A stretch of DNA of 41,094 bases from a virus, in the IMG/VR virus record IMGVR_UViG_3300020417_000006, positions 1 to 41,094 of that record; one strand, written 5' to 3'. Made by a program: the position numbers and the translations under genes. Below are positions 2,182 through 37,072 of the stretch, one piece after another; positions within the stretch are counted from its first letter, which is position 1; the number at the start of each line of letters is the position of its first letter. A model generated the notes under the pieces. The model did not search any database. It saw nothing but the letters and a program-made list of their open reading frames with translations, and had not been told where the DNA came from.

Positions 2182-3366
2182 TTAGTTTGAATAAACAGCA
2201 ATATACAGACTATCATTAGGATCCATTGCAGAACCAGTATAACCTGCAAGAGCATGAATAACTCTTATCCATTCTTGTCCTTGAAAATAATATAAAGGAC
2301 TTCTCAATACAGCACCACTATATCTAGTAGATCCACTAGTTTCTCTAAAGGCATAGTATGTGTTACTAGATTGAGAAATAGTAGCATCTCCAACTGATGC
2401 TATAGTGCCCCCTGAATAATATGAATTAGATATTCCATCAGCAGTCCCAGTATAGGAAGAACCAGTGCCTGTTGACCAACTCCATCTGTTACTATTTGCA
2501 GAAGTGCTCAAACTAGTGTAACTATGATTTTTTGCTGATGCAGGAGTGATTGGAAATCCAGTTGAAGAGGATCCATTCATCGCAGTATATGATGTCTGCC
2601 AGGAACTTCCAGATCCTCCGTTAGAAGTATTAAAAATCCAAGATTGAAGCAAAGTGGTTCTTGTTGAATCTAAGATCTGAATACCTGCTACAGAAATATC
2701 ATTATAAAAAGTTGTTGCTGCAGTAACTTTAATTCCAAGATATATTCTTCCGTATGATGCTGCAGAATTGGCAAAATCAGTTTGTACTTCACTAACATCA
2801 TATCCGCCATTATAGTCAGAACTGTTGCCCATGAAGCTATCAGAACTAATAAATCTCCTACTAATTTCATAGAATGATGATGTAATGTCTTGACCTGTAG
2901 AAACAGCAGCATCTCCTATTGTCAAATCCTCTGTTTCAATTAAAACTTGACCATAATCAATGCCAGCAGCATGCCATGATATAATTTCAATTTTAACAAC
3001 ATTTGATTCTGATAGACCATCTCCAACTGGGTTAATAACAAAACTTCCAGTGTTATTCGTAATATAAAAAAGTCCAGTCAATCCACCAGAAAAATCAGCA
3101 GCATCAACAGCTGTTCCAGAAACTGTTTGAATTCTGTAATATAACGGTGTGTTATTACCATAACCAACTGTATTCACAGTAAATGTATTATTTGTTTCCT
3201 CATTCAAAGTAGTTCCATTATCACTTGAAATAGAATCTATTTGCTTTTTGGTCCAAACATCACCAGTAACCTCTGCAGTATATTGATCGTAGATGCCATG
3301 CACACCACTATTCACATACAGTTCCAATTCTTGTTTTGGTCCTATTATTCCTGAATTACCTCTCAT
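2182..3366 (-). CDS. Putative tail fibre/adhesin protein with Calx-beta-like segment
   Basis: 394 residues, Ser/Thr/Gly/Tyr-rich and almost certainly all-beta. The N-terminus (residues 1-30) carries IIG...NSGVHGIYD, which resembles the start of the adjacent 313-residue glycine-rich protein (IIGNGLIVPGVSGIYD). Residues about 60-130 resemble a Calx-beta-type sandwich (NTFTVNT...LYYRIQTVSG...GSFVINPVGDG). The rest has no motif I recognise. No signal peptide or membrane segment is visible. The ATG overlaps the stop of the upstream gene (TAATG), indicating translational coupling. Context, between a glycine-rich adhesin and an assembly chaperone, points to a receptor-binding or fibre component; that role is inferred. 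Confidence 0.65.
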   Translation of the reverse strand: MRGNSGIIGPKQELELYVNSGVHGIYDQYTAEVTGDVWTKKQIDSISSDNGTTLNEETNNTFTVNTVGYGNNTPLYYRIQTVSGTAVDAADFSGGLTGLFYITNNTGSFVINPVGDGLSESNVVKIEIISWHAAGIDYGQVLIETEDLTIGDAAVSTGQDITSSFYEISRRFISSDSFMGNSSDYNGGYDVSEVQTDFANSAASYGRIYLGIKVTAATTFYNDISVAGIQILDSTRTTLLQSWIFNTSNGGSGSSWQTSYTAMNGSSSTGFPITPASAKNHSYTSLSTSANSNRWSWSTGTGSSYTGTADGISNSYYSGGTIASVGDATISQSSNTYYAFRETSGSTRYSGAVLRSPLYYFQGQEWIRVIHALAGYTGSAMDPNDSLYIAVYSN

Positions 3367-21908: not shown

Positions 21909-23588
21909 TTACTTTGTGACTGATCTATTTGTTCTAGGATATTTGATTCCAGGTGCATCAGGATTTCTATTACCAAATGTAGTTTGTTGAAGAGATCCAC
22001 TTGATTGTCTTTTTCTTTTTATAAAAGCATATCTATTGTTACTATTATCACCAATATGTTCCCAAGGGTCATGATTAATAGTCCCAGTAGATCCAACATC
22101 ACCAGATATTGAGTTTTCTATTAAATATTGAAGTGCCTCTGCCTGAGTAATGTTGGGTTGATTTTGAGCAATACATGCTATAATACCAGCAATTTGTGGA
22201 CTTGCCATGCTTGTTCCACTGATTGATCCTAAGTAGTAAGAACTATTTCTGGGGTCTTGTGGCAGAGATCCATAGGATTCAGCATTTGCACTATTGTAAT
22301 CATAAACAGCAGAAACAATATCACTACCTGGTGCCCAGATATCAACTCTTCTTCCACAATTACTGAAGTTTGATTTATATTCAGCAACTTTAGAACCAAT
22401 TGAACCTACACAGATAACATTATTAGCAGATCCTGGTGATGATCCTCTATTGTGATATACAGTCCAACTGCTACCAGTTACAGAATTGTTATAATCTTCA
22501 CCAGTAGGAATATCGCAGTTCCAATAACTATTTCCTGCAGATGAGATAATAATCACACCATCATCAATAGCATCTTGAATATCAGCTTCTACAGCATCAC
22601 TCCTAGAAGGAGTTCTGTACAAATAGTTAACACCAGGAACTGGAATACCATTATCTTCTGCAGAAACTCTCTTTTGAACATCATTCATTCCACTCCAATC
22701 AATAGTTGTTCCTCTGTAATTAATGGATATTATCCATGATAAGTAAATACTTCCATACGAATATCCCCAACTATGATTAGTAATTGTTGGATTTCTTCTG
22801 CCAGTTGCAGGGTTGATTGATTTGTTTTTATGGAAGTGACGAAGATAATCCCATAACTTTTCATCCCAATCAGTTACACCAGATAAGGTATCACTATAAG
22901 CCATATTGTAGATATTAGCATCTCTTGCCCAACCTTGTGTATTTCCAGCAACAGTTCCTGCTACGTGAGTTCCATGATTACTATTTGGTGAATAACCAGA
23001 TGTGCTGTAAGTATAAGTTCCATTAGAACCATAACCTAATACAGAATTATACTGGAACCAATTGAATTGGTTAACTCTACTTCCACCAGTTCCATCAACA
23101 TTAACTGCAAACTCAGGATGATCTGGATTGATATGACTGTCAACAATTACAACATCAACATTCTTTCCTGATACATCTGTTGCTATAGTTTTACCAGTCA
23201 ATTGTGGAGATCCATTACTTCCCCAATTGCTAGAAGTTTCACCCTCGATCATTCTGTAAAGACCCCAGTTTTTATCAGTAGAATCCAGAGTAAACATTGT
23301 TTTTTCAAAATTACCTGTTTGTTCCCAATGTTCCTCAGTTGTGATTGGAGCAGGTACATTATCTCTAGATTTTATTGGACGCTCACATGCAATGACTCTA
23401 GAATCCTTTCTAATCTCTACTGCTTCCTCTTCAGTCAACATGTAATGAGTGTTACGACTGATTTCTCTTCTATAAACAAGGTCAACTGCCCTGTCAGGAA
23501 TATAAAGTGATCCCCCAACAGTTTCTAGATCATCATATAATCCAACTAAGTCTTCTCTATTTTTACAGGTTACTATATATTCGTTCAT
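21909..23588 (-). CDS. Subtilisin-family (S8) serine protease
   Basis: 559 residues. All active-site elements are visible: Asp150 in VDVVIVDSHINPDHPEF, His205 in NSNHGTHVAGTVAG, oxyanion-hole Asn353 in IISSAGNSYWN, and nucleophile Ser460 in SGTSMASPQIAGI. Residues 1-72 (EYIVTCKNREDL... HYMLTEEEAVEIRKDSRVIA) resemble an I9-type propeptide/intramolecular chaperone. No secretion signal is visible, so the enzyme probably acts inside the infected cell or as part of the virion. The C-terminus (490-559) is basic and polar. The ATG overlaps the stop of the cupredoxin-fibre gene (TAATG), and gp8 follows under its own promoter. Its substrate is unknown; processing of a giant neighbour or degradation of host surface proteins are possibilities only. 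The catalytic assignment is strong. Confidence 0.92.
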   Translation of the reverse strand: MNEYIVTCKNREDLVGLYDDLETVGGSLYIPDRAVDLVYRREISRNTHYMLTEEEAVEIRKDSRVIACERPIKSRDNVPAPITTEEHWEQTGNFEKTMFTLDSTDKNWGLYRMIEGETSSNWGSNGSPQLTGKTIATDVSGKNVDVVIVDSHINPDHPEFAVNVDGTGGSRVNQFNWFQYNSVLGYGSNGTYTYSTSGYSPNSNHGTHVAGTVAGNTQGWARDANIYNMAYSDTLSGVTDWDEKLWDYLRHFHKNKSINPATGRRNPTITNHSWGYSYGSIYLSWIISINYRGTTIDWSGMNDVQKRVSAEDNGIPVPGVNYLYRTPSRSDAVEADIQDAIDDGVIIISSAGNSYWNCDIPTGEDYNNSVTGSSWTVYHNRGSSPGSANNVICVGSIGSKVAEYKSNFSNCGRRVDIWAPGSDIVSAVYDYNSANAESYGSLPQDPRNSSYYLGSISGTSMASPQIAGIIACIAQNQPNITQAEALQYLIENSISGDVGSTGTINHDPWEHIGDNSNNRYAFIKRKRQSSGSLQQTTFGNRNPDAPGIKYPRTNRSVTK

Positions 23589-24940
23589 TAGTCTTCCAAC
23601 TTAACTACAGTTAAATCAACAGTTAATGTTGATGATACAGATTCATTATTTGTTACTGCTGAGTATATTGTACTTCCAACAGAAACATCATTATTCCATC
23701 CAATAACACCAGGGGTCATTAAGAAACTGGTTGATCCAGTAGATATTGAACGAACCTCTGCAATCAATCCTGACCCTGGAGAGGGATCTGTTAAGTGTGA
23801 TCTACTTGCATCTGAAGTTCTTGATGCCTCATCAACATACAATCTAACCCAAGCAGCACTACTGATACCAACTTTAAGAAGTCCATAGGATTTAAATCCA
23901 GTGATATCTAAGTTGGTTGTAAGACCTGCCCCAACAGATCCTGTGGTTCCAGATACATCAGTTCTTACTCCAACTGCAGGTTCACTTCTTGGTATGATAT
24001 AAATGGGACCTCCCATATTTGGGTGTGCTGTGCATTGATAATAAAGAATATTTGGAGCATCAAATTGTACATCCCAAGTCAAAGTTCCATTAGAAACATT
24101 ATTAGTTGGAATACCATCATTATACTGAGTTCCAGCTGATCCATTAGGGGTGCTCTGAATCCTGAATGGATGAGCATTCATGTTATTGGTAAATTTATAT
24201 TGTTGCCCTCTTGTCAAATACAATGGAGGATCATTTTCTGCGCCAGTAAATCCAGGACCAGTGAAGGTATAGTGGTTAAAACCATCAGCACCAAGAGTCC
24301 ATTCAGAAGTATAAGTTGCAATCCCAGCAACTGATGCAAATGATGCAGTACTGCCACCAAGTGAATTGATAGTAACTATACCTGTTGGACCACCAGTTAG
24401 TGTAATATTAGTTCCAGCAACAATTGATGTCACAACACCAGTAAGAGATTCACCATTACCACTTAGAGTAGTAAAGGTGCCAGCAGTTCCACTAACATTG
24501 CCAGTAACATTTCCAGTTAAGTTGCCAGTTACATTGCCAGTTAAGTTGCCAGTAACATTTCCAGTAATATCTGAAGTGATTGTACTTGGCAATCTAGCAT
24601 CATTAATTGTTCCTGTTAGTTGAATTGAAGGAATATTTGTCAAACCTGCAGCAGAACCTGTAAATGATGATGCAGTTACAACACCACTCACTGTAACTGT
24701 ATTTGCAACAACTCTTGAGGTATCTGCCAATCCAGTGATTGTGACAGCACCAGTTGAACCACTTATTGAAATGTTGTCACCAGCAATAATTGAGGTGACA
24801 GGAGTACTTAAATTGGTGCCATCACCAATAAGTGTGTAAATCTCATTAAAATTACTATTGATCTTTTCTGCACCACCCAACAGGGTATCACCTGTACCGT
24901 CATTAGGTGTAGTACCTGTGCTTATACCTAGCTTTGCCAT
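23588..24940 (-). CDS. Fibre-type virion protein with cupredoxin domain
   Basis: 450 residues. Residues 1-40 (LGISTGTTPNDGTGDTLLGG, AEKINSNFNEIYT) match the anchor found at the start of many cyanophage fibre proteins. Residues 123-150 are TGNV/TGNL four-residue repeats. Residues 215-316 look like a cupredoxin: YLTRGQQYKFTNN, MNAHPFRIQS (His257), then LYYQCTAHPNMGG (Cys303, His306, Met309), matching the His...Cys-x2-His-x2-Met ligand order of blue copper proteins with a short ligand loop. Residues 325-450 form a beta domain (FKSYGLLKVGISSAAWVRLY) recurring in marine phage structural genes. No leader peptide is seen. Copper binding is inferred from ligands only. Its stop overlaps the protease start. 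Confidence 0.85.
   Translation of the reverse strand: MAKLGISTGTTPNDGTGDTLLGGAEKINSNFNEIYTLIGDGTNLSTPVTSIIAGDNISISGSTGAVTITGLADTSRVVANTVTVSGVVTASSFTGSAAGLTNIPSIQLTGTINDARLPSTITSDITGNVTGNLTGNVTGNLTGNVTGNVSGTAGTFTTLSGNGESLTGVVTSIVAGTNITLTGGPTGIVTINSLGGSTASFASVAGIATYTSEWTLGADGFNHYTFTGPGFTGAENDPPLYLTRGQQYKFTNNMNAHPFRIQSTPNGSAGTQYNDGIPTNNVSNGTLTWDVQFDAPNILYYQCTAHPNMGGPIYIIPRSEPAVGVRTDVSGTTGSVGAGLTTNLDITGFKSYGLLKVGISSAAWVRLYVDEASRTSDASRSHLTDPSPGSGLIAEVRSISTGSTSFLMTPGVIGWNNDVSVGSTIYSAVTNNESVSSTLTVDLTVVKLED
24489..24572 (-). repeat. Seven tandem 12-base repeats (TGN[V/L] coding)
   Basis: Seven consecutive 12-base units on the plus strand of the type ccagt[a/t]a[a/c][c/g]att[t/g]. Units two and six are identical (24501-24512 and 24549-24560), as are units three and five (24513-24524 and 24537-24548). 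They encode the TGNV/TGNL run within the cupredoxin fibre gene. Confidence 0.9.
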
Positions 24941-24961: not shown

Positions 24962-24969
24962 TATTTATT
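24962..24969 (-). promoter_or_regulatory. Putative late promoter (AATAAATA)
   Basis: Minus-strand AATAAATA overlapping the stop codon of the 4034-residue gene, 22 bases upstream of the ATG at 24940. It fits the N[A/C]TAAATA group. Confidence 0.5.
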
Positions 24970-27900
24970 AAGTGTAATTGTTATATTTTAGGGAAGCAGT
25001 TCTGGTCACCAAAGCACTTGTTGATAAACCTGTTACACCTTGTAAATTATATGAATTGAAGGAATTAGCACCAGTTCTATTGGAAACATTGATTTTACCC
25101 CAACTGAATTCAGCAAAAGTAAAGTTAGAACTAATTCCACCCTGATAAACAGTGAAAGTTTGACTATCAAATGTGAATTGACTAGAGTCAAATGTTAGGT
25201 TGTCCATTCCAAAACTAATTGTGCTAATCCCACCCACATTGGTTATGACTCTTCTGACAGTGGTCATTCCTATTCCAAGGACATCAACTTGTAATGTTTG
25301 TACTGCTCCAACTTGATATGTGTTATCAATAAAATGTGTTGAGATTCCAAGATTAGATCCATCATTATATCCACTAAAGAATGGATCTCCTGGATTATTG
25401 GTAATAGTGATATTAGAATTGAAGATAGTAAAGAAGTCACCAGTACTAATTCCACTAACTGTTATACCAGATCCAACATAAACAGGATCTCTCATAAATG
25501 AATCTTTATCAATAAAGAAGTCAAAAATAATCTGTTGATTGGCAGTTAATAAACCTGTTGTTAGACCAAAACCAACCACTGAACCATAATCACCAGAATA
25601 AGAAGATACAGACATTTCTTCCTTAGACAATGTAGGTGGTTCTATGAGAACAGATGGTGGATTGGTTGATGTATAACCAGAACCAGGATTTGTAATATTC
25701 AGTGCAGTGATTGTACCACCAACAGACACTGTAGCAGTTGCAATTGCAGTGGTAGTTCCAGTCCCAATGGTGACGTTAGCACTGGATGAAGTATAACCAG
25801 CACCTGCATTTGTAATATTCAATGCAGTGATTGTACCACCAGCAGACACTGTGGCAGTTGCAATTGCTCCAACTTTAGGATCTTGAGAAACAACTGTAAT
25901 ACTATTCTGGAAATTTCTAATGGGAGCTTCATTAGAAGAATCAAACAGTGGTCTTACAGTATCAACATATGCGATGGTTGTATTAAATCCAAGTGGTTGA
26001 ATGAGATAAGATGCAGGATAAATTTGTGGTTCATATTCAATCCTATCCTTGCCAACAAATTTTCCATTGATAAACTTATCAGTAATTTGCTTACACCATG
26101 TTACTGGTCTGAGAGTGGTTTGAATACTTGTAATACCAGGACCTGGATAATTATTTGTTTCAACAGAATCAAGGGTATTGATCCCTGTAACAGTTCTCTT
26201 GTTTTGATTCAAAGTGATTGGTTGTCCAAGTTCAGGATTATTACTAATCTTGAGAGTATCACCAACCTTGACTGTTTCTAAGATATCTGTGAATACAACA
26301 TCAACATCTCCAGCACCCTTATAGAAGATAACTTTGGATGTATCACCACTATTCTCAACACCATCAAGACCAGGTTTTGGTGCCTCAGTGAATGTGATTA
26401 CGCTACCACCTCCAAATTGATATGCAACACCAGGTTCTTGTAAAATATCATTGATGAATACAAGCAACGTTTTGTCAACTTCAATATTAGAACCAGGTTG
26501 AGATCTGATAGAAATTGGACTGTTATTAATAGTCAACTTAAATGATTTTTGTGTTCCATCAAACTGACTATCCAGACTATCAAATACTTCAAATTCTCCA
26601 ACACTAAATCCATTGAACTGATCACTATAAGTGGATTCAATTGTTATCTGGAACTCTTTGAATGAAGATGATGTATCAAGAGGTATACCAGTTAAACCAC
26701 CAGTGGGAACAGTTAGTATTTGTCCAGGATTATATGAATAACCAAAATCTCTAAGTTCAAAATTAATGACACTGGAACCTGCTCCAACGACAATATCAAC
26801 AGTTGCACTTTGACCAATACCAGTGCTAGATGAAGTATATGTGAGTGGAATATCTGAATAACTCAAGGGTGAGTCAATCACAACCACTGGAGTGTTGGTT
26901 GAAGTGTAACCAGAACCAGGATTGGTGATATTGATACTTACAATATGACCACCACTAATAGTTGCTGTTCCAATATTTTCAATAGATGGAACTACACCAT
27001 TGAATGTTTGAACTCCTACATTAACAACTTGTGAACCTGCCCTGTATCCAGAACCACTATTGCCAATACTGATAGCAGAGATTGTTCCAGCAGAAGATAC
27101 AGTTGCTGTTCCAGCAGCAGATACCAGATTCTGGTAACCATGACCCTCAGTTGAACCAACAGAAACAATTAATCCACCAATGGGGAATCGTGTCTTATTT
27201 GGATCATAACCCTCTGGTTGATTAGAACCATTATATCTGATGGATGAAATACCATTATCTTCAATAACCTGATAATCACCTTGAACTGCTTGAATTCCCT
27301 GTGGTGCTTGATAGATGTTATTGGTCAAGATTACTGTGTCTGAAGTAATTCCAATTACATTAGAACCACCCTCTTGGAGTGTAAAGATACTAGTAACTCC
27401 AGTGAATCCTCCAGAAAAATCATCAAATACATGATTTTCATTATAAGTTTCAAGAGTCGTACCAGAACCAGCACGCTTCATAAATGTTCTACCTTGGAAT
27501 GTTGAACTAGAAGTAATTCCAGTCCAATCTCTCTCATTAGGATCTGCATTTGTTGAAGTCCCAATAGGAATATTGCCATAGGGAGCAGATGCAAAGTTAA
27601 GTCTATTGCCAGTAATATTATAGTTACCAGAGAACTTAGTGATTGTTGCACCAGAAAGGTGTTCAGCAAGTGTTGTCCCAAGTCTAGGTCTTTGAACAGT
27701 AATGTTTGTTGGAATACCAAATGATCCAACAGATTCAATAGTCATAAGTTCATCATCAATCTTGATAATATCACCAGATGAGAAAGAAGTAACTCCTGTG
27801 GTATTAAAGGTCAAATCAAACACAATGTTTTGTGCAAGTTCTGATGTGACAGTTGTTGGTGAAATGGGTGCTTGAATCATATTGTCAATAGCAACCAATG

Positions 27901-30900
27901 CTTTTGCATTTTGCTTCTTGGCAGTAATTGTATGAGAGTTGCCAATACCAACTGAGTTTATGGTTAGGGTGACTGGTGGAGCTGCAAGAGCATCCTCTGC
28001 AGTAGCAGCAAACTTCATCCTGCCCTCATCAACTTTAACAACAAAGAGATCTTCAGGAAGAAGAGTGGTTGCTCCAATTCCAGGTATAGTAGCAGTAACA
28101 ATACCAATGGCAGAAGTTTGACCAACTCCTGGCGAACTATATGATACGTTCTCACCAGTTACATAGAAATGATTAGGGATGATTATTTGATCATTAGCAA
28201 GATCAACAATACTTGCACTCGAACCATCAAAGATTCTTCTAAAAATGTCATTTCCTTTATGTCTAAGTTCAAAGGAATCAATAACACTCAGTCTTGTTCC
28301 TGCATACTGCTCAAAGTCAGTATCAATCACTACATTATTTAAATCAATATTGGTTGGATTTGTATTTTCATTATTAATTTGAAGTTGCTGGAAATATGCT
28401 CTCACTTCAACTGCCTTATTGGCAACTGGTGTATAAACAACATCAACTCCATTGGTTATTGTGCTGACCCCAACTGTTCCAATACCTGCTCCTGTTGAAA
28501 TATTTGCATATTCAACAAATGCTTCATTAGAGGAAGAATTGATGCAAGCAAACTCAAACATTTCATATTCATTATCAGTATTGTTCTCTACAACAAGGAC
28601 ACCATACATTGATTCATAAGGTGCTGTATAAGATATGATTGGATTTGCTGTAGGTGAACCAGATGCAGCAATAGATGAATAAGCAGAACCAACTCTTGAA
28701 ACTACAAGATCAGTGGAACCAATAGATGTTCCACCATCAGTAATAGCAACCACAGCAGAATTTGCAGTCAATCCTGATCCAACACTAGAGTGGAATTCAA
28801 CAATGATATTGCCACCAGTGATTCTTGCACCAAATGTGCCAATACCTGACCCATAGTCACCCTCTGCTTCATTCAAACTTCCATATTCAAGAATAGAAAC
28901 ATCTGTTCCATTGGAGAGAATATTGAGTTCAGTTGAATAGAAATCATCAGTTGATACATGTTCAATCAAAGTAAGAACTTTTAGTGCTCTATAAGAAGTC
29001 CCAACAGAAACAATAGTGGTTGATGCGTTAGGAGGGATAGCAGCTTTTTCAGAAATGACAGCAGCAACATCTCCAAAACTTTGGTTTCCTGTTGTTGTCT
29101 TATCATTTAGAATACTGAAACTTACAGTTGAAACATCATACGTGTTAAACTCAAACTTGACTGGGTAGAAAATAAGATCCCATCCATCAGATGTGGTGAG
29201 GTAGTCAAAGTATCCAAGATATGGATAAGTCTCAATACAAGCATATTGGGACATATAAGCAACATTCTCATTCTGAATCAATGAGACAACAGCAAACTGT
29301 CTCTCATCTGTAAAAATTCTATCTCTAGCATGAGTTAGAATTTTATTATATGTGTAATTACCAGGGAATGATGAGATTGGTTCATATGGTTCTGATCTCT
29401 CATTACTGTTAAACTGGGATGAGATATCATCAATACTAAGCACTCTGTTACCAACAGATTGGAAATAATCTGCAAGAATTTTGTTCTCAAATAAAATCTC
29501 ATCTGAGAACTCAAGACCATTTACAGAAAAACTAGTTTCAGTAACATTATCATAATCATAGTAGCAAGAAAGATCTCCTTTACCAATAATATCCACAACT
29601 GTTTCAATATTGGAATCTATTGCTTCAATAGGAACAGATTGTCCACCAACTGGTGCTGCAGCACTTTCAACTTCAAGATCAGCAAACTTCTTGAATCCAG
29701 CAGTGTGATTGAGTGAACCTACTGCATTATTCCAAGTATCAAAATCAACACTCGACTTCAGAGAGTATGAGAAGTTTTGATAATACTCATTATTAGGAAT
29801 TCTCTGGAGATTATCATTCAAGAATCCTGTGTTTCTATCCCAACCACTGATTACTGTTGCACCAGCTCCAGTTTCAATTTCTGCTTTGAAGTCATATTTG
29901 GTCTTAATCACTCCTTGAGTGTTTGAGGTGAGACCTCTTACTGTATCATTAAGTTTAAATTCATAAGAACTAGAAACTTTCAATATTTCTGTATTTTTAT
30001 TCCAACTTTCAACTTTACCTTGATTTCTACCATTTGTTACAATTTCATCTTGGAAATAGTCATTTTTTCTAAGTGAAATATCAAAGATTGGGAAATGGGA
30101 AGTAGGGATAATTCTACCTTTAATTGGTATGGTTGCATTTCCTGGTTCTTCTCCATCAAGAAGAACATCAGACATATCATAATCAATAAATGCACCAGAA
30201 CCACCAAGGTTAGTTTGAACTCCAACTACAGGGAAGTAAGCATAATTGTGTTGTGAGGAGTTGTAACCAGTTCCAGTTGTTCCTAATCCAACATTGATAC
30301 CTTCCACCAATACAGTCTCGCCAATAACAAATGGGAAATCTTCTTCATCACTGAATATTGCATTTAGTTGTGCTCTTACCTTCTTTGTGGAGTTTGTATA
30401 TGTGAGAGATTCTATACCAATTCCATTTGTATTATTAATTGGGACAATTCTGGGTGTGGTTTCATACAACTCAGTTGTATTTTTAATGATTGAAACCTGA
30501 TTATCACCAATGGCATAGGAAAGTTGAACTCCATCCATCAATTTGTTAGTATATCCATCAACAACTACAAGATCAGGAGCAAGAAGATAATTTACTCCAT
30601 TGGATGAAATACCAATTCTTTCAAAAGAATTCAGTGGTTCAATCTCAAGAATTTCAGGCAGATTTGCAATAGATCTCAAAGTTTCATCTGTAGGATAATC
30701 AAATCCAATGTTATTGGATGAATACCTAAAGTTTAAAATCTTACCAATATTCTGACTCTCAGGATAAAGGATAGCATCAGTTCCAAATCCACTTCTTACT
30801 GTATTGATTCCAGGGAGACTTCTATATCCTGTGCCTGCGTTTGTAATCACTACATCAGAAATAGAACCATAAGCAGTTAAAGAACTTGTATCATATGATG

Positions 30901-33900
30901 GTGAAGCATTGGTTGCACCATATGAAACCACTTCTGGGAATGAACCAATATTGAATGTAAATGTAGTTGTTCCAATACCTGTAACTTTTTGTCTTCCATC
31001 AAACTTTGTAGGAACAAGGTTGACTTGATTATTGGAATCTACATTAACATCAATTATCAAATCTCTCTTAATTAAAGGAGAGAATGATGTATTTACAGTG
31101 CTGAATGAATACCAAAGAGCAGAGGGTACTTCATCATTTATAGTGAGAGTCAAACTTCCATCCACACCAACTGTGCCACTCTTTGTTACTTCAAATGTAG
31201 GACTGTCTCCTGTGGTGATGAATAAAGTTCTGAAAGAAGGATCAGAATATAAATTAAGTTCAAATGCTGGATATTGAATACCGTTAGATGCAAATGACAA
31301 TGATGAATCAGAGAGATCAAATTTAAGAATATTATTTCTACTAACATCAACCATAGGATTGATCTTAGACAGGGTTCCAGAAGATGCAGAAGTAATCTGT
31401 ACAAAGTTTGGATTAACAGAATTAATCTCTGCTTTTGTTCTAACAAGTTTTATCTTTGTGGGAGTATAAAGTACAACATAATACATCTCTTCATTTATCA
31501 AACCACTGGATGGTGAAGAAGAGGTGTGAATTACCTTGTCACCTGTCTTGAACTCATTATTACTAAACAGAATGCTATTTTCAGATGTACTTACATCACC
31601 AGACGCAAAGGTCTTAGGATTAAATACCATTCTTCTATTGAAGTCATCATATTTTACAGTGATAACCACTTCATCTTTTGGTTTAAGATTGAAGTTAATG
31701 AAATCATCAACAAACAAACCATGTGTGGATGCAGTAGAAACTGTGACTACATTTTTTTGCAGTTGACCAGTGACTACATTTGTTCTTTTTGTCCTGAGAT
31801 TGTGATATACTCCTGAACCAACATTGGTGAAGTAAAGAAGACCAGCACCAGTATTGACACCAACATATTGACCTGTTATGGTGGAAATACCAACTTTGTT
31901 AGTTGATAGACCAATGAATCTGGAAGAGAGTGGAACAGCAAAGAATGTTCCAAGTCCAGACATAACATCAGTGCTTGCTGCACCAGTCAATCCATTCCAA
32001 ACTTGGATAGAGTCTCCACCATTTGTTGCATACTCAACAACATCATTAATTTCAAGACCATGATTAGGATAGTAGATTGCCTGTGGTGGGATGACAATAG
32101 AAGAGGCACCTGCACCTGGATTAGAGAATGTGACTGCTGTTCCAATGTTTGTTCCTAATACTGTTCCAAGACCCACTGCTTCAGAAGGATTGAAATACAA
32201 TACGTTGTTCAACCTAAGAGTCTGAGTAGTTCTTGCAGCACCAGAATTAATAGTAAGAGCTCTAGGATCTTTGAATATCTTTGTCAGTGCAAGATGTGAA
32301 GTTCCAATAGTTCCTGATTGCTCCCTAAGAACCTGAAGTCTTTGATTTCTTCTATCAAGAGTGAGAACTTTAACCTTCTCTCCACCAACTTCCATGATGT
32401 CATCTGGTCTTATAAAGGGATACTGAATAGCACCACCAATTTCAAGGTAAGTTGTTACACCAGTTACAGATGTATCACCAATACCAGTTAACAAAACAAA
32501 TGAACCAGTGCTGACGCCAATATTATAATTGCCATCCAATCCATCATAGTAATTTGAAAGACCTGAAATGTTAACTAGATCACCATCAGACAGATCATGA
32601 GGAACTGAACTATAACCTACAAATTGTCCTTTTGATGCGTAAGGTATAAATTCAATATCAGATACATGTGTGGATGTCACACTGATATTGTTTACAACCT
32701 TTCCTGATACTCTTTCAACTTTAGCTGCAGCATTCTTTCCATTGGTAAAGGAATTATCAAACAGCAGTTGATCATTAACTCTATAATCTCTACCACCTGT
32801 AAGAATGCCAACTCCTTGAATATTACCAGCAGAAGCTGATGTTACATCAATCTCCTGTTTCTTGTAAGTGTTTGAGTCAAAGATATAATCATATCCACTC
32901 AAAGGTGAGTTCATATGATATGGAGTAGTATTTCTAAACCACTTGTTCTTCTCAATATCATATTCTATATGATTTGAAGACGTGCTAAAGTTAAATGTAT
33001 TTGGTTCTGAATTAAATGAATTGCCAATTACATATGGGAATACTGGTCTTCTATAATTATTGAATGCACCAGAGGTATCTGAAGTTTCTTCAATGGTGGT
33101 GAAGTACGCATATGTGCCCTCTGGATAATCAGGAGTGATGCAGTATCTGCCATTGCTCTCATCTAGATCACCAGTTCCTCTAAATGCAAAATCTTCAACA
33201 AAGAATCCCTGAGCAAACTGTGAGACAGGAGGTCTATTAGTTGTCTGTAAGTTAACCTCATAACCAGAGATCATTCTCTTGATGGGTCCACCTGATGATG
33301 TTGCATAAGCATATGGACCATAAATTGGATGACCATCATACGACCAACCAAGGATTGGTGAGTGTTTTGATGAATCTATTTCTATATTATTTGTTTTATT
33401 GAGATCATTATCTGAATAGATGGTATTACCATTAGCATCTACAGCATAAGTTGTTTCTCTAAGATATCTGGATGGATATAGATGAGAATATTCAAGTGTA
33501 TCTCCATCAATTGAAGTATTGATGATTCCATCATCTGCTCCAATATTAGAAAGATTTCTTGCAAATAGGTTAACTGTCCATTGATTGATGCTAGTATTGA
33601 CAGTTGCATCAACTCCAGCAGGTCTAACCATAATGGTTGTATCACTCCCATAACCTGCACCACCACTGATAACTTTAACTTCAGTGATTGCACCACCACT
33701 CACAATAGGAGTGAGTCTGGCAAATGATCCAATACCAGTTATAACAAGATCAGGGGGAGAATTATATTCACTTCCACCCATATTAATTAAAACTTCAACT
33801 ATTCTGCCATTAGAAATAATAGGAGTTAGTTGAGCATCTTTTCCACTGTTGAAGTTTACGACAGGTTGTCTGGTGAAGTTTAATACTTCAGAAGAACCAT

Positions 33901-36900
33901 ACCCAACACCTTCATTAGTGATATCAATAGAGTCAATAGAACCTCTGAAGATTGGTTGAACCTTACAAGAGAAATCTTGACTAGTTAATGTGTTAACACC
34001 AATAGTTCCTTGAACAGAAACAGTGATTGGTTTGTAATTAAAACTACCATTACCTTCAGATTGAAGATTTGTAACAATATTGTTGTCATAGAAGTATTCA
34101 GATTGGGTTTGACCAGTCCCTACCTCTGAAAGTGAGAATACACTGTCACTAATCTTTACAACATAATACTCTGTTGTTGCGCCAAGACCAGCAACAGGAG
34201 ATGAACCTGCTGTATATTGAACAATCTCTCCTTCATCATAACCATGATCATCAATTGTGATCTCATTTGATGCAGTGTTGACACCAACAATGAGTCTTTC
34301 TTTGTTCTTATAACCTGAACCCTCTTGGTCTACAACAATGTTAGAGACAATCTTTTTCTTTTCATAAGATTTAAACTCTTGTCTACCCACACCATACCCA
34401 GTGAGGTTTACAGTGTTGATTCCTGCTTTAGCATCATTAAAATTATCATGGAGTGTAATTGTCAATGAATCAACTACATTTGCATAATAATCAGCATCTG
34501 TCTTAAGACCTGCAACACCATCAATTCCGTTAGACACATAGACAACTCTCTCATTGTCTCTAAACTTGTGGAATGTGGTAAATCCAATTGTATTGACTGA
34601 GAGTGACAAACCACTCTTAGTGCCAGGACCAGAATTGAACTGGACACTATGGTCAATAGAAGCAAGATTGACCTTTGCTGATGCATTGGTTCCCTGCCCA
34701 CCACTGATAATTACTACAGGTTCATCAACATAATCAAAACCATTATCAATAATTCTGACCTCTTTCAGAGATCCCTCCACAGCAACCACACCAGTAGCAC
34801 CAACACCAGTATTGTCACTAATAGTCATCAGAGGTGGATTGATTACATCATACCCCTGACCTCTATTGTTGACATTCAGACCTTTGATGCCACCATAATA
34901 TACAGTATCAAATGATTTATAGTTTATAAGTTCAACACCATTAATTAAAACACCAGTGTACCCTGGAGATGTTCTATATTCTCCTACCTTTGTAGATGGT
35001 GTTTTAATCTCTCTATAGATTTTTTGTGGTGATAACTCTTTATTGTAAAATCTAAAATAACAGAATTTACTATCAGTTACAGAACCAACAGGAGTAATAT
35101 ACTTGTTATTGTAGATATCTGATGAACTTCTAGCAAGTTTGATTGTGGTGGAACTTACTCTCTTAACATAGTAAACTCCCTCTGAAATATTATCAAAAGA
35201 ATCAACAGTCTCAGTTGTTTGGGTGATACCACTTGATGATGTTGTTGTGGTCTTGATTACTCTAGGTTTATAGTAAACAGGATCACCTGACTGAAAACCA
35301 TGATCAGATGTTGGTGTTACCACCAGATTGTCATTTACTGCTGAACCACTAAATGAAACCTCTCTATCATAAGGATTAGTGGGAATTGAGCTGTAGTTTG
35401 GAATAGAGTTTGACGCTACAAGCAGTTCACCACTAAACTTTTCATAAACATTGAGAACATTGACATTGATGTTATTAAGTTGTGGATATTTTGTAGAAGA
35501 TCCTTTGAGAATTTGATTCTCTAATGTCCAAACTTGAGAAAACTGTGCTGTGGTGATATTACCAGATAAAACTGCTACAATCTTTGTCTTGGAAAGGACA
35601 GACTGAACAGTGAGAGTTCTTGATAAACCGCCACTACTGGTCAGTGACATTTTATAACCTGGTCTCACAAACAGATCATCAAATGTTTCAATATTATAAG
35701 TTTTTTGTGTAGCATCAATTAATTCAAATGATGATACAGTCCACTTTGTTTTAACATTATACAACCAGGGAATTGCCTGTTTTTGTGTGGACTCCAAACC
35801 AATAGACTTAACATTGATTGTGTCATTTTTATTGAAGAAGTATGTTTCTTCATTCAGTTTTAGATTGGTAAGAGTTGAAACTACTTTTACTCTTACTTCA
35901 CCATTTTTTCCAGTTGCATAACTGTAATCATCTAGAGAAATATCTGATGTAGAGTTTATATTAGTTGTGGTTGTAGTAACACCTAAGAACTGAGTGAGTG
36001 TTTTATCTGAATATGAGAGAATATTTTCATCACCATCAACATTAAGAACTGATAGTTTGCCTGATGATGGAAAACTCAATGTGGAATCAACGTCCAATAC
36101 TGTTGATCCAACTGAAACATTATTAACAATCTTGGTTTTTGGATTAGGTTCAAATCTTCCATAGATTGAACCATCTACATCAATATCTCTTTGATAACCA
36201 TAGTCAATGGCAATTTGATAGAAATCGCCATCAGGGTAGTTGATCTTCTCTACATTGGTGATTGTTCCTCTTGCCTTTGTTCTATCTTGATAGAAAGTAA
36301 GGTTCTTGAGATCAAGAGGGTCTCCAACATATTCCTCAACAACATAATCTTGAGTGATTCTGTAATCAGCATCTGATGGTTTGATCAGGAACTTACTGGG
36401 TTTGATGACCTCTACATCTACGCCATACAGTGCTCTGAAAAGAATCTCAAATGATTGATCAGTTCCTTTAGATTTGTAGAAACTATCAGCAGTGAAGATG
36501 AAGTTTCTTTCATCTAGACCACTATAAAGTTTTCTCTGAGAAAAACCAGGAATGACTTGATTTTTAACTCTTTTGAAAAACTCCTGAAGAAATTTAACAT
36601 TCAGGTTGACAATGGTTGCTCCACTTTTGTGGTCTGCAGACTCTGTTTCTTTAAATGTCAGTTGATCAGGGGTATTAGTCCCAATGTAGTCTGTAACCCC
36701 ACTGAAACCCCTTGTACACCCCTCAAAAGTGGTGTCTGTCTTAGTCTCATATAAAATGATTTCATCATCAATTTGAATCAAACCCTTTGATTCAGGAAAT
36801 CCATCAGTGAAATTACTATTAGAAGAAGTTGTAATAGTAGTGTCAAGGAAAGTTATATCACCCTGCAAAATAGTGGATGATTTAAGATTATATAACTCAT

Positions 36901-37072
36901 CAACTTTTAAATATTGATCTAGGTTACTGATTAAATCTTCAGCGCCACCTTTTACTTCTTGTGAAATATAATACTCTTTTAAGAAGTCCACAAGAAGTGG
37001 AAAGTCATCCCTTACATACTCAGGTACACGACTCGCGATTATATCTTGGAACTTTACTCTATCTACTGCCAT
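24968..37072 (-). CDS. Giant gp7-like baseplate wedge protein with repeat-rich C-terminal extension
   Basis: 4034 residues, one uninterrupted 12.1 kb frame. The N-terminal ~240 residues (FPLLVDFLKEYYISQ, FLQEFFKRVKNQVIPGF, DSFYKSKGTDQSFEILFRAL, YGVDVEVIKPS) resemble the conserved part of T4 gp7 (FFESRSYDFYSTKG...YKFLFKVLYNEEVEIE). In T4 that part lies toward the C-terminus of a 1032-residue protein. An IDDEIILY...GCTRGFSG module is inserted at about 62-155. The rest is beta-rich: many GxGYxxxP repeats, a YHYH-type domain (HSPILGWSYDGHPIYGPYAY, nt 33085-33375), a second IDDELMTI...RPRLGTTLAEH module (nt 27637-27810) and a near-identical 40-residue tandem duplication near the end. It sits between gp6 and gp8, where T4 has gp7. 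A wedge-initiator core is inferred; the extension may form peripheral spikes. Confidence 0.85.
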   Translation of the reverse strand: MAVDRVKFQDIIASRVPEYVRDDFPLLVDFLKEYYISQEVKGGAEDLISNLDQYLKVDELYNLKSSTILQGDITFLDTTITTSSNSNFTDGFPESKGLIQIDDEIILYETKTDTTFEGCTRGFSGVTDYIGTNTPDQLTFKETESADHKSGATIVNLNVKFLQEFFKRVKNQVIPGFSQRKLYSGLDERNFIFTADSFYKSKGTDQSFEILFRALYGVDVEVIKPSKFLIKPSDADYRITQDYVVEEYVGDPLDLKNLTFYQDRTKARGTITNVEKINYPDGDFYQIAIDYGYQRDIDVDGSIYGRFEPNPKTKIVNNVSVGSTVLDVDSTLSFPSSGKLSVLNVDGDENILSYSDKTLTQFLGVTTTTTNINSTSDISLDDYSYATGKNGEVRVKVVSTLTNLKLNEETYFFNKNDTINVKSIGLESTQKQAIPWLYNVKTKWTVSSFELIDATQKTYNIETFDDLFVRPGYKMSLTSSGGLSRTLTVQSVLSKTKIVAVLSGNITTAQFSQVWTLENQILKGSSTKYPQLNNINVNVLNVYEKFSGELLVASNSIPNYSSIPTNPYDREVSFSGSAVNDNLVVTPTSDHGFQSGDPVYYKPRVIKTTTTSSSGITQTTETVDSFDNISEGVYYVKRVSSTTIKLARSSSDIYNNKYITPVGSVTDSKFCYFRFYNKELSPQKIYREIKTPSTKVGEYRTSPGYTGVLINGVELINYKSFDTVYYGGIKGLNVNNRGQGYDVINPPLMTISDNTGVGATGVVAVEGSLKEVRIIDNGFDYVDEPVVIISGGQGTNASAKVNLASIDHSVQFNSGPGTKSGLSLSVNTIGFTTFHKFRDNERVVYVSNGIDGVAGLKTDADYYANVVDSLTITLHDNFNDAKAGINTVNLTGYGVGRQEFKSYEKKKIVSNIVVDQEGSGYKNKERLIVGVNTASNEITIDDHGYDEGEIVQYTAGSSPVAGLGATTEYYVVKISDSVFSLSEVGTGQTQSEYFYDNNIVTNLQSEGNGSFNYKPITVSVQGTIGVNTLTSQDFSCKVQPIFRGSIDSIDITNEGVGYGSSEVLNFTRQPVVNFNSGKDAQLTPIISNGRIVEVLINMGGSEYNSPPDLVITGIGSFARLTPIVSGGAITEVKVISGGAGYGSDTTIMVRPAGVDATVNTSINQWTVNLFARNLSNIGADDGIINTSIDGDTLEYSHLYPSRYLRETTYAVDANGNTIYSDNDLNKTNNIEIDSSKHSPILGWSYDGHPIYGPYAYATSSGGPIKRMISGYEVNLQTTNRPPVSQFAQGFFVEDFAFRGTGDLDESNGRYCITPDYPEGTYAYFTTIEETSDTSGAFNNYRRPVFPYVIGNSFNSEPNTFNFSTSSNHIEYDIEKNKWFRNTTPYHMNSPLSGYDYIFDSNTYKKQEIDVTSASAGNIQGVGILTGGRDYRVNDQLLFDNSFTNGKNAAAKVERVSGKVVNNISVTSTHVSDIEFIPYASKGQFVGYSSVPHDLSDGDLVNISGLSNYYDGLDGNYNIGVSTGSFVLLTGIGDTSVTGVTTYLEIGGAIQYPFIRPDDIMEVGGEKVKVLTLDRRNQRLQVLREQSGTIGTSHLALTKIFKDPRALTINSGAARTTQTLRLNNVLYFNPSEAVGLGTVLGTNIGTAVTFSNPGAGASSIVIPPQAIYYPNHGLEINDVVEYATNGGDSIQVWNGLTGAASTDVMSGLGTFFAVPLSSRFIGLSTNKVGISTITGQYVGVNTGAGLLYFTNVGSGVYHNLRTKRTNVVTGQLQKNVVTVSTASTHGLFVDDFINFNLKPKDEVVITVKYDDFNRRMVFNPKTFASGDVSTSENSILFSNNEFKTGDKVIHTSSSPSSGLINEEMYYVVLYTPTKIKLVRTKAEINSVNPNFVQITSASSGTLSKINPMVDVSRNNILKFDLSDSSLSFASNGIQYPAFELNLYSDPSFRTLFITTGDSPTFEVTKSGTVGVDGSLTLTINDEVPSALWYSFSTVNTSFSPLIKRDLIIDVNVDSNNQVNLVPTKFDGRQKVTGIGTTTFTFNIGSFPEVVSYGATNASPSYDTSSLTAYGSISDVVITNAGTGYRSLPGINTVRSGFGTDAILYPESQNIGKILNFRYSSNNIGFDYPTDETLRSIANLPEILEIEPLNSFERIGISSNGVNYLLAPDLVVVDGYTNKLMDGVQLSYAIGDNQVSIIKNTTELYETTPRIVPINNTNGIGIESLTYTNSTKKVRAQLNAIFSDEEDFPFVIGETVLVEGINVGLGTTGTGYNSSQHNYAYFPVVGVQTNLGGSGAFIDYDMSDVLLDGEEPGNATIPIKGRIIPTSHFPIFDISLRKNDYFQDEIVTNGRNQGKVESWNKNTEILKVSSSYEFKLNDTVRGLTSNTQGVIKTKYDFKAEIETGAGATVISGWDRNTGFLNDNLQRIPNNEYYQNFSYSLKSSVDFDTWNNAVGSLNHTAGFKKFADLEVESAAAPVGGQSVPIEAIDSNIETVVDIIGKGDLSCYYDYDNVTETSFSVNGLEFSDEILFENKILADYFQSVGNRVLSIDDISSQFNSNERSEPYEPISSFPGNYTYNKILTHARDRIFTDERQFAVVSLIQNENVAYMSQYACIETYPYLGYFDYLTTSDGWDLIFYPVKFEFNTYDVSTVSFSILNDKTTTGNQSFGDVAAVISEKAAIPPNASTTIVSVGTSYRALKVLTLIEHVSTDDFYSTELNILSNGTDVSILEYGSLNEAEGDYGSGIGTFGARITGGNIIVEFHSSVGSGLTANSAVVAITDGGTSIGSTDLVVSRVGSAYSSIAASGSPTANPIISYTAPYESMYGVLVVENNTDNEYEMFEFACINSSSNEAFVEYANISTGAGIGTVGVSTITNGVDVVYTPVANKAVEVRAYFQQLQINNENTNPTNIDLNNVVIDTDFEQYAGTRLSVIDSFELRHKGNDIFRRIFDGSSASIVDLANDQIIIPNHFYVTGENVSYSSPGVGQTSAIGIVTATIPGIGATTLLPEDLFVVKVDEGRMKFAATAEDALAAPPVTLTINSVGIGNSHTITAKKQNAKALVAIDNMIQAPISPTTVTSELAQNIVFDLTFNTTGVTSFSSGDIIKIDDELMTIESVGSFGIPTNITVQRPRLGTTLAEHLSGATITKFSGNYNITGNRLNFASAPYGNIPIGTSTNADPNERDWTGITSSSTFQGRTFMKRAGSGTTLETYNENHVFDDFSGGFTGVTSIFTLQEGGSNVIGITSDTVILTNNIYQAPQGIQAVQGDYQVIEDNGISSIRYNGSNQPEGYDPNKTRFPIGGLIVSVGSTEGHGYQNLVSAAGTATVSSAGTISAISIGNSGSGYRAGSQVVNVGVQTFNGVVPSIENIGTATISGGHIVSINITNPGSGYTSTNTPVVVIDSPLSYSDIPLTYTSSSTGIGQSATVDIVVGAGSSVINFELRDFGYSYNPGQILTVPTGGLTGIPLDTSSSFKEFQITIESTYSDQFNGFSVGEFEVFDSLDSQFDGTQKSFKLTINNSPISIRSQPGSNIEVDKTLLVFINDILQEPGVAYQFGGGSVITFTEAPKPGLDGVENSGDTSKVIFYKGAGDVDVVFTDILETVKVGDTLKISNNPELGQPITLNQNKRTVTGINTLDSVETNNYPGPGITSIQTTLRPVTWCKQITDKFINGKFVGKDRIEYEPQIYPASYLIQPLGFNTTIAYVDTVRPLFDSSNEAPIRNFQNSITVVSQDPKVGAIATATVSAGGTITALNITNAGAGYTSSSANVTIGTGTTTAIATATVSVGGTITALNITNPGSGYTSTNPPSVLIEPPTLSKEEMSVSSYSGDYGSVVGFGLTTGLLTANQQIIFDFFIDKDSFMRDPVYVGSGITVSGISTGDFFTIFNSNITITNNPGDPFFSGYNDGSNLGISTHFIDNTYQVGAVQTLQVDVLGIGMTTVRRVITNVGGISTISFGMDNLTFDSSQFTFDSQTFTVYQGGISSNFTFAEFSWGKINVSNRTGANSFNSYNLQGVTGLSTSALVTRTASLKYNNYT
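25671..25867 (-). repeat. Tandem 120-base duplication within the gp7-like gene
   Basis: Positions 25671-25747 and 25791-25867 align over 77 bases with six mismatches by eye and a period of exactly 120. They encode two copies of ATATVS[A/V]GGTITALNITN[A/P]G followed by a GYTS motif, so the duplication is in frame (40 residues). Confidence 0.88.

Follow-up and report, generated by a model that had tools for sequence, protein, structure and literature searches.

Do the fibres or baseplates of marine phages carry a copper-protein fold, and if so, what would a metal do there? The question is raised by a 41,094-base virus record (the window), in which a sequence-only reading had placed a cupredoxin domain with a full set of copper ligands inside a phage fibre protein.

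Architecture of the protein and its gene neighbourhood

The ORF encoding this protein (23588..24940, minus strand) is genuine, with 450 codons, an ATG and a stop codon. It sits inside a cyanomyovirus baseplate cluster, where its neighbours encode a 4034-aa baseplate-wedge-like protein (24968-37072; weak baseplate-wedge match plus a YHYH domain), an S8 subtilase of phrog_9158 (21909..23588, minus strand; PF00082, E 9e-32) whose gene adjoins it, a gp8 homolog and a 2512-aa DUF4815 protein. Because the gp8 homolog is ~72% identical to gp8 of Synechococcus phages S-B05 and RB11-B and Prochlorococcus phage P-TIM68, the window is most likely a fragment of a T4-like cyanomyovirus. The YHYH domain (PF14240, E 6e-23) occupies residues 1232-1329 of the 4034-aa protein.

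The 450-aa protein matched phrog_677 (E 3e-49), a cyanophage family named 'baseplate wedge tail fiber protein connector', with residues 143-317 aligning to the C-terminal part of the profile (249-410 of 412). All 48 members of our family alignment A1 match phrog_677 as well, and the cupredoxin domain corresponds to profile positions 305-410; the family record, however, names neither a cupredoxin nor a copper site, and the 450-aa protein differs in having an additional C-terminal domain. At the N terminus, residues 6-89 (24674..24925, minus strand) form a T4 gp9/10-type anchor that scored 26.4 bits against PF07880 (cut-off 25). Together with the baseplate neighbourhood (the baseplate-wedge-like giant, the gp8 homolog and the DUF4815 protein), this N terminus marks the product as a T4 gp9/gp10-like protein. 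Residues 322-449 (23594..23977, minus strand) are a separate beta-sandwich domain that matches phrog_15343 and recurs at the C termini of other marine phage fibre proteins; its AlphaFold2 (AF2) model consists mostly of beta strands (pLDDT 80.9), and a fold search of it against the PDB gave no confident match.

Judged from these matches, the 450-aa protein is a gp9-like fibre/connector protein in which the cupredoxin domain (residues 214-315; 23996..24301, minus strand) separates the anchor from the tip domain. The sequence-only reading had described just this order, a fibre anchor upstream and a marine-phage beta domain downstream of a copper-like module embedded in a virion-type protein, and the profile matches bear it out; its domain limits (residues 215-316) were correct to one residue, our match spanning 213/214-315. 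We infer that the 450-aa protein is present in the phage particle. One relative, from S-SCSM1, was labelled 'virion protein' by its depositors, and the S-CREM2 virion proteome contained no identification of the 450-aa protein.

Fold and predicted ligands of the central domain

The family profile, the AF2 model and the fold search against the PDB all assigned residues 214-315 to the cupredoxins. The model (pLDDT 91.9, pTM 0.85) comprises eight strands: His257 falls between the adjacent strands 4 and 5, the Cys/His/Met group falls between strands 7 and 8, and Cys303 is the final residue of strand 7. The 50 best Foldseek matches listed from the PDB were all cupredoxins or multicopper proteins, at modest TM-scores of about 0.4-0.56; the best was rusticyanin (1gy2, 7.9e-6), and a domain of a three-domain copper nitrite reductase (CuNIR; 2dv6) matched at 1.4e-5. 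Model and matches together describe the Greek-key beta-sandwich of about eight strands that defines the Cupredoxin superfamily. Searched against PDB sequences, the A1 profile likewise found mainly cupredoxins (CuNIR, amicyanin, pseudoazurin, plastocyanin and rusticyanin), with E-values of 1.1e-4 for CuNIR 9cck, its best match, 0.0014 for amicyanin 1sf3 and 0.0066 for algal plastocyanin 2plt. Profile and model are not fully independent because both rest on alignment A1.

The profile alignment set His257 (codon 24170..24172), Cys303 (24032..24034), His306 (24023..24025) and Met309 (24014..24016, all minus strand) on amicyanin His53, Cys92, His95 and Met98, so that all four coincide with positions in a copper protein of known structure. 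Together with the predicted topology, this alignment is compatible with a shared site, and so does not refute the sequence-only reading in the way that it had proposed, by residues placed far apart. These four amicyanin residues are its copper ligands (PMC12723479), so that Cys303 is the predicted thiolate ligand and Met309 the predicted axial one, with His257 the first ligand and His306 the remaining one. We confirmed in the ORF that the four residues lie where the sequence-only reading had put them. That reading had also likened their order and spacing to plastocyanin: the order stood, but the spacing did not, since the loop reads C-x2-H-x2-M as in amicyanin, and plastocyanin has C-x2-H-x4-M. 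When the protein was shuffled 200,000 times, the pattern H-x(35,60)-C-x2-H-x2-M arose only twice.

The likeness to amicyanin (1aac/1sf3) covers all four ligands one to one and the loop followed by a strand. Amicyanin, however, is a free electron carrier of methylotrophs, shares about 20% identity with the phage domain, which is embedded in a fibre protein, and has Asn after the first His where the phage domain has Pro. CuNIR and rusticyanin are likewise an enzyme domain and a free carrier, at about 16% identity in fold alignments and a TM-score of about 0.5. The domain of the 450-aa protein on its own fell below every Pfam and NCBIfam cut-off, did not match PF00127 (Copper-bind, plastocyanin/azurin) and scored 15.3 bits against the amicyanin equivalog TIGR02657 (cut-off 110.2); 26 of the 48 relatives in A1 matched PF00127 weakly, at best with 8e-5. 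By sequence, the domain resembles the amicyanin site without being a member of the amicyanin family. Neuraminidase matches from a single-sequence family search were dismissed as chance matches. PF25489, named after the plant protein At5g54830, was weakly matched by 35 of the 48 A1 members (best 8e-6) and was not found in the control genomes. Among viral models, the best fold matches were cyanophage fibre proteins; Pithovirus and marseillevirus 'beta-sandwich proteins' (BFVD A0A481Z6J5, A0A481YWX9 and others) also matched the domain model by fold.

How well the ligands are kept was counted in 117 family members below 90% identity. The family is diverse (mean pairwise identity 38%, mean column value 63%), and the ligand columns are among its most conserved: His257 is retained in 113 of 117, Cys303 in 104 of 110, His306 in 105 of 110 and Met309 in 104 of 110. 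All four are present in 103 of the 109 members scorable at every ligand column; one of the other six lacks a single ligand and five lack three. Five triple losses were reached in none of 20,000 trials of independent column shuffling, but this signal of joint loss is modest and supportive only, because as many are seen in 13 of 330 quadruples of other columns with equal conservation. Cys303 is the sole cysteine of the 450-aa protein, and exactly one cysteine occurs in 97 of 99 near-full domain members, so a disulfide within the chain or domain was ruled out as its role.

From fold and ligand register we conclude that residues 214-315 form a cupredoxin domain with a predicted type-1-like site of amicyanin loop spacing, which upholds the central proposal of the sequence-only reading at the level of sequence and model. 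Our preferred interpretation, which we hold with a little more confidence than doubt, is that this is a metal-holding, type-1-like cupredoxin module of the marine phage fibre, shared and mobile among phages, in which copper mainly stabilises. Each chain would take up one copper ion, released by the lysing host or drawn from seawater; the ion's main effect would be to lock and stabilise an exposed fibre module. Copper in the predicted site would serve stability more than electron transfer, for which the proteins examined offered no redox partner and which is therefore the less likely role. Against copper we count the Pro after the first His, the TM-scores of about 0.5, the scores below Pfam and NCBIfam cut-offs and the scarcity of free copper in the cytoplasm, where virion proteins are made.

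The same scarcity makes an apo protein plausible. The module might then serve adhesion or spacing, its metal site disused or never filled in the virion, much like the copper-free cupredoxin fold of ephrins or the Ig-like domains on phages, and some tandem copies that lack three ligands do still align over the domain. The free shuffling of the module between fibre proteins also fits such a part. We nevertheless regard a metal-free module as rather unlikely, given that H-C-H-M persists in 103 of the 109 distinct members that could be scored, along with a lone cysteine that has no other evident reason to be kept.

Spread and cellular relatives

The sequence-only reading had proposed a profile search for the domain in other phages, and the domain proved to be widespread. 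Of 50,697 phage records searched by tblastn, 339 contained it; these were almost all cyanophages, and many carried it in proteins labelled gp9-like fibre connector. Two IMG/VR scans gave 74 loci and at least 80 loci. Its hosts include gp9-like connectors, long-fibre subunits and the podovirus P-GSP1, with more distant copies in a Pelagibacter phage and a Methylophilales phage. We conclude that the domain is a mobile beta-sandwich module common to fibre, connector and tail-protease proteins of marine phages. A search for it in plasmids gave no match, and alignment A2 found four loci in the genome collection, three of them phage tail-gene contigs in metagenome-assembled genomes (MAGs) and one a Bacteroidetes gene. 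The three contigs (L172, L173 and L174) are binned into MAGs of Planctomycetota, Rickettsiales and Gammaproteobacteria.

Residence in fibre and connector proteins would also suit a site occupied by a different soft metal (zinc, for example), or one that presents copper as a means of attaching to a host receptor for metal uptake, as the 'Ferrojan horse' idea supposes for iron-bearing phage fibres. Iron gives this idea a precedent: HxH motifs bind it in T4 gp37, and marine phage fibres have been proposed to contain it too (PMC11705849). Still, Cys/His/His/Met ligands with this loop are typical of type-1 copper, and the domain lies mid-protein in the 450-aa protein and C-terminally in just 35 of 181 ORFs (a number of these being truncated where the locus stops). 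We therefore consider another metal, or docking, quite improbable.

For the stabilising copper site that we favour, the iron of T4 gp37 fibres is, by analogy, the nearest precedent for metal in a phage fibre (cited in PMC11705849). That source also treats iron in fibres as established for T4 and as debated for ocean metal cycling. In the literature searched, we found neither a description of a cupredoxin or plastocyanin-like domain in phage tails or virions nor a report of copper as a phage-tail component. Filled sites would mean that cyanophage particles contain copper, on which the working of the fibre might depend; with hundreds of marine phages encoding the domain, the particles of all of these may carry copper. 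One portion of a cyanophage gp9-like protein, hitherto listed only as a connector, gains a fold and a testable function.

We also asked where the domain has cellular relatives. The nearest found were secreted proteins of Bacteroidia, several with collagen-like repeats, and a search covering 198 genomes of the class to which G001, the Bacteroidetes genome holding L175, belongs detected the domain in 11. These proteins (e.g., L179, L181 and L183) have the same domain with all ligands but are cellular, begin with signal-like segments and are not parts of virions. Among the Bacteroidia copies examined, some have the plastocyanin-like spacing C-x2-H-x4-M. In a tree of 52 domains, seven Bacteroidia domains stood beside 26 gp9-type phage domains, with support of 90/88 for the joint group, and four label changes were needed between phage and bacterial rows. 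Derivation from a host electron carrier, another suggestion of the sequence-only reading, was not supported: CuNIR and amicyanin outscored the cyanobacterial plastocyanins (1bxu 0.16, 1b3i 0.37, 1pcs 0.5), and among cellular proteins the closest found were those of Bacteroidia. We specifically rejected a recent copy of host plastocyanin (cyanobacterial PetE) on the C-x2-H-x2-M loop and on the E-value for 1bxu set against 1e-4 for CuNIR.

Subtilase-linked and permuted copies

Links between cupredoxin domains and S8 subtilases recurred in individual cases (among them L078, L082 and L142) and took several forms: adjacent genes, as in the window (21909-24940), C-terminal fusion (ACG-2014j) and insertion, the last two in other phages' relatives of the window's subtilase. 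Tandem cupredoxin copies N-terminal to the protease part were also seen. Such physical linkage, by adjacency, fusion or insertion, together with the full blue-copper ligand set, is what would speak for redox activity in the virion itself: the domain would carry electrons and might, for instance, switch electron transfer at the host surface or the tail protease next to it. No partner redox domain was seen, however, the database matches cover only fold and site, and the protease linkage may reflect shared module traffic within the tail cluster. We consider this role very improbable, although sequence cannot decide between redox and adhesion functions.

In S-CAM1 (L084) and its IMG/VR relatives (L064, L072, L073, L074 and L075), a subtilase-like protein harbours the module between its Asp-type and His motifs. 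These copies are permuted, the half with C-x2-H-x2-M coming first and the half with the His second, as would be expected had the domain been circularly permuted at the loop joining strands 6 and 7. All 7 distinct permuted units listed retain C, H, M and H. Whether S-CAM1-type proteins are active proteases is uncertain because the usual catalytic Asp motif reads Glu. A broader proposal is that marine phage virions are copper proteins, with type-1 copper needed for fibre stability or attachment and the permuted module carried in a tail-associated protease-like protein; we offer this tentatively, doubting it somewhat more than we believe it. A title and abstract search of the literature on circularly permuted cupredoxins returned nothing relevant. 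L073 and L075 contain a second permuted copy at another site, which is absent there in L064, L072 and L074; in the L073 ORF that begins at 3284, the two copies span residues 202-309 and 444-547.
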